DNA from: Archangium sp.
Lineage (GTDB): Bacteria > Myxococcota > Myxococcia > Myxococcales > Myxococcaceae
Assembly: GCA_016793585.1 (NCBI GenBank)
Contig: JAEUJR010000256.1
Coordinates: forward strand, 1-15,940
DNA length: 15,940 nt
Direction: 5' to 3'
Under the pieces are notes generated by a model. It was not told the DNA's origin, made no database searches, and worked only from the letters and a program-made list of their open reading frames with translations. The position numbers and the translations under genes are program-made. Positions 2,055-5,556 of the stretch are shown one piece after another (positions within the stretch are counted from its first letter, which is position 1; each line of letters begins with the position of its first letter).

Positions 2055-3830
2055 ATGAAATCCTTCTCTCGCCTGTCGTTGCTGTCCCTCTGCCTCGCCG
2101 CCGTTCTCGCCACCGCGCAAGACGAGGTCGAGGTCGCCACGCCGAAGTCTGCGGCGACGACGGAGGCTGGCACCGGTGGCCGCAAGCCCATCACCAAGGG
2201 TGACCGCGAAGCCGCCATCAAGGCCGAGGCGCAGCGCAAGAAGGACGAAGAAGAGGCCGCCAAGAAGGCCGCCGAAGAGAAGAAGAAGGCCGACGAAGAG
2301 GCCGCCCGCAAGCTCGCCGCCGAGAACGACGCCCGCAAGAAGGCCGAAGAAGAGGCTCGCGCGAAGGCGGAGGCCGAGGCCAAGCGCCTGAAGGCGGAGC
2401 AGGAGGCCATCGAGGCCAAGAAGAAGGCCGAAGAAGAGAAGAAGGCCAAGGCCGAGGCCGAGAAGCTTCGCCTCGAAGAAGAGAAGAAGAAGCTCGAGGA
2501 GGACAAGAAGCGCCTCGCCGAGGAAGAGAAGAAGCGCAAGGAAGACGAGAAGAAGGCGGCTGAAGAGAAGAAGAAGGCCGAGGCCGAAGAGAAGAAGCGC
2601 CTCGCCGCCGAAGAGAAGGCGAAGAAGGAAGAAGAGAAGAAGCTCGCCGAAGAGAAGAAGCGCGACGAAGAGCTCGAGAAGAAGCGCCAGGAGATCGAGA
2701 AGGTTCGCGTCGAGCTCGAGAAGAAGAAGAGCGAAGTCGAAGAGAAGCGCCTGAAGGAAGAGCAGGCCAAGCTCGAGGCCGAAGAGAAGAAGAAGAAGGC
2801 CGAAGAGGACAAGAAGAAGGCCGAAGAAGAGGCCCGCCTCGCCGCCGAAGAGAAGAAGAAGAAGGAGGAGGAGTTCAAGAACTCCGCCGAAGAGAAGAAG
2901 CGCGTCGCCGAAGAGGAGCGCAAGAAGAAGGAAGAAGAGAAGAAGGCCGCCGCCGAAGAGAAGAAGCGCCTGGCCGAAGAAGAGAAGGCGAAGAAGAAGG
3001 CCGAGGCCGAAGAGAAGAAGCGCCTCGCCGACGAAGAGAAGAAGAAGAAGGAAGACGAGAAGAAGTTCGCCGCCGAAGAGAAGAAGCGCCTCGCCGACGA
3101 AGAGAAGAAGCGCAAAGAAGACGAGAAGAACGCCGCCATCGAAGCCAAGCGCCTCGAGGCTGAAGCCAGGAAGCTCGAAGAGGAGCAGAAGAAGGAAGCT
3201 GCGCGTCTGGCCGCCGAGGCCGCCAAGCAGCCTGCGCCGTCGAGCGAGCCCAGCCGCCGCGTGATTCGCCCTGGCGAGACGCCGCCTCCGTCGCAGAACG
3301 TCGCGGCCACCACGCCGCCTCCGTCGAACACCAACACCACGCCGCCGCCGTCGTCGAACCCGCAGCCCTACGGCTCGAACACTGCGCCCGCGAACAACAC
3401 GCCTCCGCCTGCCGGCACGCAGCCCAAGACGCAGGCGCCCGACGCGTACCTCGGTGGCAAGGCCTCGGTTGGGGCGATGATCCCCGCGCGCTCGCTCGAC
3501 GAGGCGAAGAGCGACCCGCGCTTCTCGGCGGCCGGCCTCGTCGAAGACGCCCGCGTGAAGGTCATCTCGGTGACCGACAAGTTCCCGTACTACGGCATCG
3601 CCAACAACGGCTGCGGCTCGGGCAAGAGCTTCGTGATGTCTGAGCTCATCTCGCCCTTCGACGGTCTGCCCGCGGGCATTCCCGTGGTGCTGCGCATCGA
3701 AGACCCCACGCTGGGCCCCGCGCGCGCCGGCTCGAACCTCGCGTTCTCGGGCCTGCGCCGCGCCGGCAAGGCGCCCGACGGCACGTTCGTCTACTGCGGC
3801 AAGGGCACGGCCTTCCCCGTTCGTCGGTAG
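2055..3830 (+). CDS. Exported protein with very long charged (KE-rich) helix, Pro-rich linker and unknown C-terminal domain
   Basis: The 591-residue product starts with a signal peptide (residues 1-21; likely cleavage after ATA, before Gln22). Residues about 52-392 are almost only Lys, Glu, Ala, Arg and Leu in runs such as EEKKRLAEEEKKRKEDEKKA. This is the pattern of a single alpha helix or long coiled coil, which as a helix would span roughly 50 nm. Residues 393-462 are Pro/Thr/Asn-rich and probably disordered. Residues 463-591 form a compact domain with two cysteines (Cys520 in NNGCGSG, Cys581 in VYCGKG) that could pair in the periplasm. I do not recognise that domain. The overall plan resembles TolA-type envelope spanners, but there is no N-terminal membrane anchor apart from the signal peptide and no TolA C-terminal signature that I can see. 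tatB starts 35 bases downstream with its own TACA box. Confidence 0.85.
   Translation: MKSFSRLSLLSLCLAAVLATAQDEVEVATPKSAATTEAGTGGRKPITKGDREAAIKAEAQRKKDEEEAAKKAAEEKKKADEEAARKLAAENDARKKAEEEARAKAEAEAKRLKAEQEAIEAKKKAEEEKKAKAEAEKLRLEEEKKKLEEDKKRLAEEEKKRKEDEKKAAEEKKKAEAEEKKRLAAEEKAKKEEEKKLAEEKKRDEELEKKRQEIEKVRVELEKKKSEVEEKRLKEEQAKLEAEEKKKKAEEDKKKAEEEARLAAEEKKKKEEEFKNSAEEKKRVAEEERKKKEEEKKAAAEEKKRLAEEEKAKKKAEAEEKKRLADEEKKKKEDEKKFAAEEKKRLADEEKKRKEDEKNAAIEAKRLEAEARKLEEEQKKEAARLAAEAAKQPAPSSEPSRRVIRPGETPPPSQNVAATTPPPSNTNTTPPPSSNPQPYGSNTAPANNTPPPAGTQPKTQAPDAYLGGKASVGAMIPARSLDEAKSDPRFSAAGLVEDARVKVISVTDKFPYYGIANNGCGSGKSFVMSELISPFDGLPAGIPVVLRIEDPTLGPARAGSNLAFSGLRRAGKAPDGTFVYCGKGTAFPVRR
2212..3215 (+). repeat. 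About 1 kb purine-biased, low-complexity coding tract
   Basis: The plus strand is dominated by GAA, GAG, AAG and GCC codons, giving long runs of purines and many near-repeats of units such as GAAGAGAAGAAG. It encodes the charged helix of the gene at 2055. Units are imperfect and codon choice varies, so this is not a recent clean tandem duplication. Such tracts are prone to slippage and misassembly. Confidence 0.85.
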
Positions 3831-3865: not shown

Positions 3866-4294
3866 ATGCTGAACATCGGCACGGGCGAAATCATCTTCAT
3901 CGCGATCGCGGCCCTGCTCATTCTGGGGCCGCAGAAGCTGCCTGAGTTCGCCCGCACCATCGGCAAGCTGGTGCGCGACTTCCGCCGGCAGACCGACGAC
4001 GTGCGCAACACCGTCGAGCGCGAGTTCTACAAGATGGACCAGGAGCTGACCAAAGAGGTCCCCGCTCCGGTGCCCCAGCCTGCGCAAGACGCCATTGCCC
4101 ACGGGCACCACGCGGGCGAGCTGCCTGACGCGTTGCCCGCGCCGGAGGCCGACCTGTCACAGGTGATGAAGGGCGCGCCAGCGGCCGAACCGGTCGCCCT
4201 GCCTGCTCCGCTCGAACCCGTCGCCGTGGCTCCGACGGTCGAGGCGGCCGTTCCTGCTCCCGCTCCCACCGAGCCCTCGCCCGAGAAGCCCTGA
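3866..4294 (+). CDS. tatB: Twin-arginine translocase subunit TatB (TatA/B family)
   Basis: This inner-membrane component of the Tat system, which exports folded proteins with an RR signal peptide, works with TatC in the substrate receptor. The 142-residue product has one membrane helix (about 6-20) with a polar Glu8 near its periplasmic end. The hinge LGPQKLPEF follows (20-28), then an amphipathic helix to about residue 60, and an Ala/Pro-rich tail. Glu directly after LP, as in LPEFART, is usual for TatB rather than TatA, so I call it TatB. A TatA role, or both roles, cannot be excluded because no second TatA/B gene is in the window. The stop lies eight bases before the tatC start, which supports one operon. 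Confidence 0.88.
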   Translation: MLNIGTGEIIFIAIAALLILGPQKLPEFARTIGKLVRDFRRQTDDVRNTVEREFYKMDQELTKEVPAPVPQPAQDAIAHGHHAGELPDALPAPEADLSQVMKGAPAAEPVALPAPLEPVAVAPTVEAAVPAPAPTEPSPEKP

Positions 4295-4302
4295 GCGCCG
4301 AC

Positions 4303-5556
4303 ATGCCCGCCGCGGCCGTGACCCCCGACGAATACAAGATGAGCCTGTTCGAGCACCTCGCCGAGCTTCGAACGAGGCTGCTCCGCGTCACCATCGCCGT
4401 CGTGGTGCTCGGCATTCTCTCGCTCACCTTCGCGCGGGAGATCTACGGCTTCCTCATGCGGCCGGTGCTCATGTCGCTGCCGTCGGCGTCGGCGCAGCTC
4501 ATCTACACGTCGGCCATCGAAGAGCTGAACGTGCTGATGAAGATCGGCCTCTACGCCGGCGTGTTCATGAGCACGCCGGTGCTGCTCTGGCAGATCTGGA
4601 GCTTCGTGGCGCCCGGCCTCTACGACAACGAGAAGAAGCTGGCCGCGCCCTTCATCGTCTTCGGCACGCTGGCCTTCATCGCCGGAGCCGCGTTCTGCTA
4701 CTTCGTGTTGTTGCCGCAGATGTTCCAGTTCCTGCTGCAGCGTGAAGACGTCGCGGTCATCACCCAGCGCATCGACACCGGCCGGCTGCGCGAGCAGGAC
4801 GCGATGCGCTACCTCTCGCTCGGCGACCTCGACCACGCCAGCGCGCTCGCGAGAACGGCGGTGGGCGATCTCGAAGCGGCGGGTGAAGGCAAGACGACCG
4901 ATCAGGGCATGGGCCTGTCGCTCATCAGCAAGCGCAGCGTCGACGTCCTCGCGCGCCTCGATGGCCTCGGCCGGCTGATCGACGCGACTCGCTCGGGGTA
5001 TGGCGAGGCGTCGCGACCGGTGCTCGCGCAGGTGATGGGAAAGCGGCTCGAGGCGGTCGCTGCGTTCGGGCTCGGTGAGTATGACAAGGCGCAGTCACTC
5101 GCCGACGAAGCCGCTGCGATTCTGGCCGGAGTGGCGAGCGCGCGCGCGAACGACTTCGCCGAGCTGTGGAAGCTGGAGCGCACCCTGAGCGTCGGCACCG
5201 CCACCGTCGAGAGCATGAACTGGACGAAGCCGATGCTCTCGATGAGCGAGCAGCTGTCGTTGGTGCTGGTGCTCGAGCTCGCCTTCGGCCTCATCTTCGA
5301 GCTGCCGCTGGTGATGATGGTGCTCGGCATGGTGGGGCTCGTGTCGTCGGCGTTCCTCTTCAAGTACCAGCGGCATGCGCTGGTGCTGTGCCTCATCGCC
5401 GCGGCCATCATCACGCCCACTGGCGACGCCGTGAACCTGGCGCTCATGGCCGGGCCCATGCTGCTCTGTTACGAGCTGGGCGTCGTGCTGGTGTGGCTCG
5501 TCGAGAAGCGCCGCAAGAAGCAGACACCGCCCGATTCGAACCTCACCACCACCTGA
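4303..5556 (+). CDS. tatC: Twin-arginine translocase subunit TatC with large insertion in the second periplasmic loop
   Basis: TatC is the six-helix receptor for RR signal peptides in the inner membrane. The N-terminal HLAELRTRLL (18-27), the loop WQIWSFVAPGLYDNEKK with conserved Glu110, helix 4 with the FELP motif, and the ITPTGDAVN stretch before helix 6 are all typical. The product has 417 residues, whereas usual family members have about 230-260. The excess is a single block, residues about 147-306, between helix 3 (ending at LPQMFQFLLQ) and the segment MLSMSEQLSLV that begins helix 4. It should therefore face the periplasm. The block is helical and contains two TPR-like helix pieces, LGDLDHASALA near 173-183 and LGEYDKAQSLA near 257-267. 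The frame is open through the junctions, so this is not a frameshift. tatB precedes it, and an exported protein gene starts nine bases after the stop. Confidence 0.94.
   Translation: MPAAAVTPDEYKMSLFEHLAELRTRLLRVTIAVVVLGILSLTFAREIYGFLMRPVLMSLPSASAQLIYTSAIEELNVLMKIGLYAGVFMSTPVLLWQIWSFVAPGLYDNEKKLAAPFIVFGTLAFIAGAAFCYFVLLPQMFQFLLQREDVAVITQRIDTGRLREQDAMRYLSLGDLDHASALARTAVGDLEAAGEGKTTDQGMGLSLISKRSVDVLARLDGLGRLIDATRSGYGEASRPVLAQVMGKRLEAVAAFGLGEYDKAQSLADEAAAILAGVASARANDFAELWKLERTLSVGTATVESMNWTKPMLSMSEQLSLVLVLELAFGLIFELPLVMMVLGMVGLVSSAFLFKYQRHALVLCLIAAAIITPTGDAVNLALMAGPMLLCYELGVVLVWLVEKRRKKQTPPDSNLTTT

Follow-up and report, generated by a model that had tools for sequence, protein, structure and literature searches.

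The question raised by this locus is what the long block within the second periplasmic loop of TatC represents and what it could contribute to the core of the twin-arginine translocation (Tat) system. The gene lies on a stretch of 15,940 nucleotides from Archangium sp. (contig JAEUJR010000256.1), which is called the window in the following. Judged from sequence homology, the block and the periplasmic insert solved in the TatC of Myxococcus xanthus are one and the same domain. The finding is real and largely known, as the domain was already described structurally in this relative. The two features concerned are:

4303 to 5556, forward strand: tatC, 417 amino acids, with an insert in the second periplasmic loop (Pfam, NCBIfam and alignment with 9e03_A)
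4738 to 5220, forward strand: the inserted periplasmic domain, TatC residues 146-306 (alignment of 72 TatC)

The preliminary description, which was made from the DNA alone, reported a tatC open for 417 codons with canonical parts on both sides of one excess block. This is borne out by the frame 4303-5556 and by TatC profile matches in two stretches. The score for Pfam TatC (PF00902) was 206.2 bits (cut-off 25.1), with the best stretch at residues 17-150, and the NCBIfam model tatC (TIGR00945) was passed with 175 bits compared to a cut-off of 132.7. An alternative in-frame ATG at M13 would lead to a TatC of 405 amino acids, which is the length listed for the database entry from the same contig (P0002). 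In the alignment of 72 TatC, the 161 residues from 146 to 306 replace 6-9 residues in 40 insert-free proteins, so that the excess is indeed one block. The comparison across TatC proteins, which had been suggested as a check, showed the block to be conserved in relatives and to start at residue 146, and the coordinates first given for it (4741-5220) were correct within one codon. Database scoring, which covered the 7994 best word-sharing candidates, revealed the block at E ≤ 0.001 in 55 proteins including P0002; since these proteins carry it, the block does not stem from an error of assembly.

The closer identification is based on a sequence search of the PDB. The M. xanthus TatC from the cryo-electron microscopy structure of TatBC (9e03_A) was co-linear with residues 13-408 of the window TatC (E 2.5e-140). 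A second match was the M. xanthus periplasmic domain solved on its own (9e0s_A; residues 139-321, E 6.6e-39). The window insert therefore occupies the same place as the M. xanthus loop-2 domain and is homologous to it in sequence, while the loop connecting helices 2 and 3 is four residues shorter in 9e03. The M. xanthus entries were released on 2025-08-27. Based on the homology to 9e03 and the known topology of TatC, the insert is expected to lie in the periplasm, which supports the earlier reading as a periplasmic cap. Prototypical TatC proteins (E. coli 9dzz, A. aeolicus 4b4a) match the TatC core on both sides of the insert, but do not comprise such a block. The TatC of Nitratifractor salsuginis (9e02) likewise contains a large periplasmic insert, although it is found in another loop and is, according to Deme et al. 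(Nat Microbiol, June 2026; PMC13323110), unrelated and disordered.

A structure model of the insert stretch showed four helices of 33, 16, 49 and 48 residues, and a model comparison assigned to it the same fold as to the solved M. xanthus domain. The parts of the predicted fold are as follows:

4720 to 4818, forward strand: predicted helix 1, residues 140-172 (the first ten modelled residues show a mean predicted local distance difference test score, pLDDT, of 63)
4819 to 4851, forward strand: LGDLDHASALA, helix 1/helix 2 turn and start of helix 2 (model and alignment)
4828 to 4875, forward strand: predicted helix 2, residues 176-191
4924 to 5070, forward strand: predicted helix 3, residues 208-256
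5071 to 5103, forward strand: LGEYDKAQSLA, helix 3/helix 4 turn and start of helix 4 (model)
5080 to 5223, forward strand: predicted helix 4, residues 260-307

The two strings had been quoted before as helix pieces in the style of tetratricopeptide repeats (TPR), and both were found (L173-A183 and L257-A267). TPR consist of tandem short two-helix units of 34 residues. The helix-turn-helix arrangement with a glycine at the turn and the two LG[DE] strings resemble the inter-helix turn of the TPR consensus, and the TPR_2 model gave an E-value of 0.16 when the whole protein was scanned and of 0.022 with just the insert. However, the corresponding 12.6 and 15.3 bits lie below the cut-off of 27, and among the 25 inserts scanned (24 distinct) just three showed TPR_2 at E ≤ 1, the best being the 0.022 mentioned, with no TPR match above the cut-off. 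Tandem short two-helix units are absent from the insert model, in which two of the four helices far exceed the length of a TPR helix. The suggestion of TPR-style helices forming an alpha-solenoid thus had to be given up. Together with the 55 proteins carrying the block, these observations leave next to no probability for an explanation by an assembly or frame artefact or by a TPR solenoid; the co-linear 9e03_A, the four-helix model and the fold match to the solved M. xanthus domain refute it. The LG[DE] pattern is common to both hairpin turns of the insert, and the domain may have originated by duplication of one hairpin.

In order to describe the distribution, 195 genomes of the phylum were sampled, of which 179 showed a PF00902 match. 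The insert profile (A3, built from 25 rows) was matched at E ≤ 0.001 in 98 genomes, 97 of them at E 2e-22 or better. These 97 belong to four families (f1 with 90 of 96 genomes, f14 with 1 of 1, f15 with 4 of 5 and f16 with 2 of 2), and the sole match outside them (G045) was weak and lies in a frame of 165 amino acids. Apart from G045, no match was obtained in f9-f13, the remaining families of this order, or elsewhere in the phylum; the sister families have a TatC without insert. The remaining seven genomes of the four families gave no TatC match at all in a family and protein search, and therefore no insert-free TatC was seen in f1, f14, f15 and f16. These seven genomes (G081, G086, G093, G117, G122, G135 and G159) are rated 89-100% complete, and the missing TatC may be due to assembly gaps, masking or true absence. 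The matches to the insert and to TatC were located on one and the same contig in at least 67 of the 97 genomes (66 compared by eye, plus the nearest genome, G001), and in G149 tatC is split over two contigs. The insert sequence itself was inspected in G001 and in 14 further insert genomes (L062-L075). In addition, a set of 53 loci was used, 20 of which showed a tblastn match to the insert, the remainder being insert-free TatC or fragments. Where titles were available, insert-bearing loci were mostly assigned to Myxococcaceae, Archangium/Archangiaceae, Myxococcus or Myxococcales. Since L017 and L073 are one identical sequence, 33 aligned insert rows correspond to 32 distinct ones, the same holds true for the 33 neighborhood loci, and the 25 rows of A3 reduce to 24.

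A tree of 72 TatC cores (71 loci, including 31 of the 53 loci of the set, and the window) was calculated with the insert columns excluded. The 32 loop-2 insert rows formed one side of a branch with a Shimodaira-Hasegawa approximate likelihood-ratio test (SH-aLRT) value of 90, the only support measure of this quick search, which was read unrooted and comes with a long-branch warning. This pattern fits, but does not prove, a single gain, and from these sequences the insert was probably gained once within the order. A domain solved in one species marks a whole lineage, and as a consequence, natural TatC proteins with and without insert are available for comparison inside one order. One record, L020 (BNCN01000001.1), titled Comamonas sp. 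KCTC 72670, contains an M. xanthus-type tatC and groups with G138 (SH-aLRT 100); it is probably mislabelled or contaminated.

For the function, we consider it reasonably likely that the insert acts as a clamp, which keeps the TatC trimer together and seals its center on the periplasmic side. Three TatC copies would come together in the (TatBC)3 core, and their inserts, each folded into helical hairpins, would associate to a homotrimer that caps the periplasmic face. The cap would add TatC-TatC contacts, hold the trimer and shut the center, while the TatBC site for signal peptides would be the usual one and the edge of the complex would be where substrates cross. For M. xanthus, the fold, the homotrimer (determined by crystallography), the periplasmic place and the added TatC-TatC contacts of the domain, which is ordered within the TatBC complex, are reported in PMC13323110. 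The present analysis contributes the homology, the position, the fold match of the model, a pattern compatible with one gain and the constraint on the sequence. As the homotrimer is reported there for M. xanthus only, we infer trimerization of the window insert by analogy. Because a search of open-licence PMC papers found neither a mutant nor a deletion of the insert, the clamp role and stabilization as its selected role are likewise what we infer. The earlier statement that no function has been described holds in part: the structure and the trimer are now published, while no insert mutant turned up in the accessible text of PMC13323110, and no paper testing the insert was found by title or beginning of the abstract in the open-licence PMC full text.

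Besides the missing mutant, several observations weigh against the clamp. According to the same text, E. coli and N. salsuginis form the same TatBC trimer without the domain, and the branch for a single gain (SH-aLRT 90) stays below the mark of 95 given for the tool. The mean entropy amounts to 1.87 bits in the insert, compared to 0.83 bits for residues 13-145 and 0.63 bits for residues 307-405. Across the 33 rows, from which L019 and L022 (partial) and L056-L061 (inserts in loop 1) were excluded, 1 of 161 insert positions was invariant, namely G174 within LGDLDHASALA, which is little for a demanding interface. R218 and D227 are among the residues retained in at least 90% of the A3 rows. The ratio of nonsynonymous to synonymous substitution rates (dN/dS; six close sequences, 15 pairs, Nei-Gojobori without correction for codon bias) was 0.26 in the insert compared to 0.17 and 0.08 in the core parts. 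In these sequences the insert diverges faster than the core, yet is under purifying selection. As the fastest-evolving part of a TatC whose relatives in sister families of the same order manage without it, the insert could also be a near-neutral passenger, an old insertion tolerated since it folds by itself. This explanation appears quite unlikely, considering the dN/dS of 0.26, the ordered trimer in M. xanthus (PMC13323110) and the absence of any loss, as each of the 97 genomes of the four families in which TatC was matched also matches the insert.

The placement over the periplasmic face of the core, as given in PMC13323110, could also fit a gate or a substrate-handling lid opening during transport, in keeping with the gating or the binding of emerging Tat substrates suggested in the preliminary description. 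In the same text, transport is argued to run at the periphery of the complex and not through its center, a central route which the ordered M. xanthus domain would additionally obstruct, and in a 2026 review (PMC13186574) the case against a central pore draws on the M. xanthus loops. A gate or lid is therefore regarded as very improbable. The ordered cap also bears on the debate whether Tat substrates pass the center of the core.

The two genes upstream of tatC in the window are:

3866 to 4294, forward strand: tatB-like gene, 142 amino acids, immediately 5' of tatC (Pfam TatA_B_E and NCBIfam tatB scores)
2055 to 3830, upstream of tatB: predicted secreted protein with a signal-peptide-like start, a long charged stretch rich in K, E and A, and a conserved C-terminal part

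The product of 3866-4294 scored 39.1 bits with Pfam TatA_B_E (cut-off 21) and, with 52.9 bits, missed the NCBIfam tatB equivalog cut-off of 56.5 by 3.6 bits. A tatA/B-like gene adjoining tatC is usual, although not strictly defining, and is present here. For the product of 2055-3830, Pfam gave nothing at E ≤ 1. This helical protein had been proposed as a docking partner of the insert, and a cap binding a periplasmic partner (chaperone, peptidase or envelope protein) that receives exported proteins would suit the helical domain, whose exposure to solvent at the exit makes it plausible as a surface for binding. In 16 of the 32 distinct insert-bearing loci, the upstream protein was indeed found beside tatB by its C-terminal part. 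However, it was missing from the fetched flank in 12, six of which show a gene of the major facilitator superfamily (MFS) upstream of tatB; four loci, in which the contig begins in or near tatC, were uninformative, and several flanks are short. Among the loci with the MFS gene is L069, whose TatC shares 385 of 392 residues with 9e03. Since the neighbor is inconstant even there, the upstream protein does not serve as partner of the insert in general, and its docking is not supported as the general role. We know of no periplasmic partner of the cap, and a docking platform is considered unlikely compared to the clamp.

Inserts in periplasmic loop 1 were observed elsewhere in Myxococcota. The TatC of family f8 (L056-L060, genomes G016-G019; proteins P0059-P0178) carries about 130 additional residues there, which were examined in five loci and in 55 (alignment A4) of 120 listed proteins among 2074 matches. 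The loop-1 stretch comprised 139-144 residues in all 55 A4 proteins, and the predicted structure showed the (beta-alpha)5 fold of a receiver (CheY-like) domain. Pfam Response_reg did not exceed its cut-off, with 3 of 55 proteins at E ≤ 1 (best 0.1) and none of the five loci. A phospho-acceptor Asp together with a conserved Lys was not found across the 55 proteins. Of the 55 proteins, 11 have D and 33 have S at position 122 (end of strand 3), and 53 have D, E, S, A or Q at position 171 (after strand 5); both positions were chosen by eye from the model and are taken by us to represent receiver catalytic residues. The model thus predicts a receiver fold with a degenerate phosphorylation site, which, if confirmed, would be an unexpected domain for a periplasmic loop. 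It is a tentative and rather doubtful possibility that Myxococcota elaborated TatC on its periplasmic face on at least two occasions, by a helical trimerizing cap in loop 2 (Myxococcaceae and allies) and by an unrelated receiver-fold domain in loop 1 (f8). Should both inserts influence the Tat core from the outer side, Tat assembly would have a control site on the periplasmic face that is missing from the E. coli model. A further TatC, L061 (G052) of family f10, comprises about 73 extra residues in loop 1, which by eye are unlike the f8 domain.
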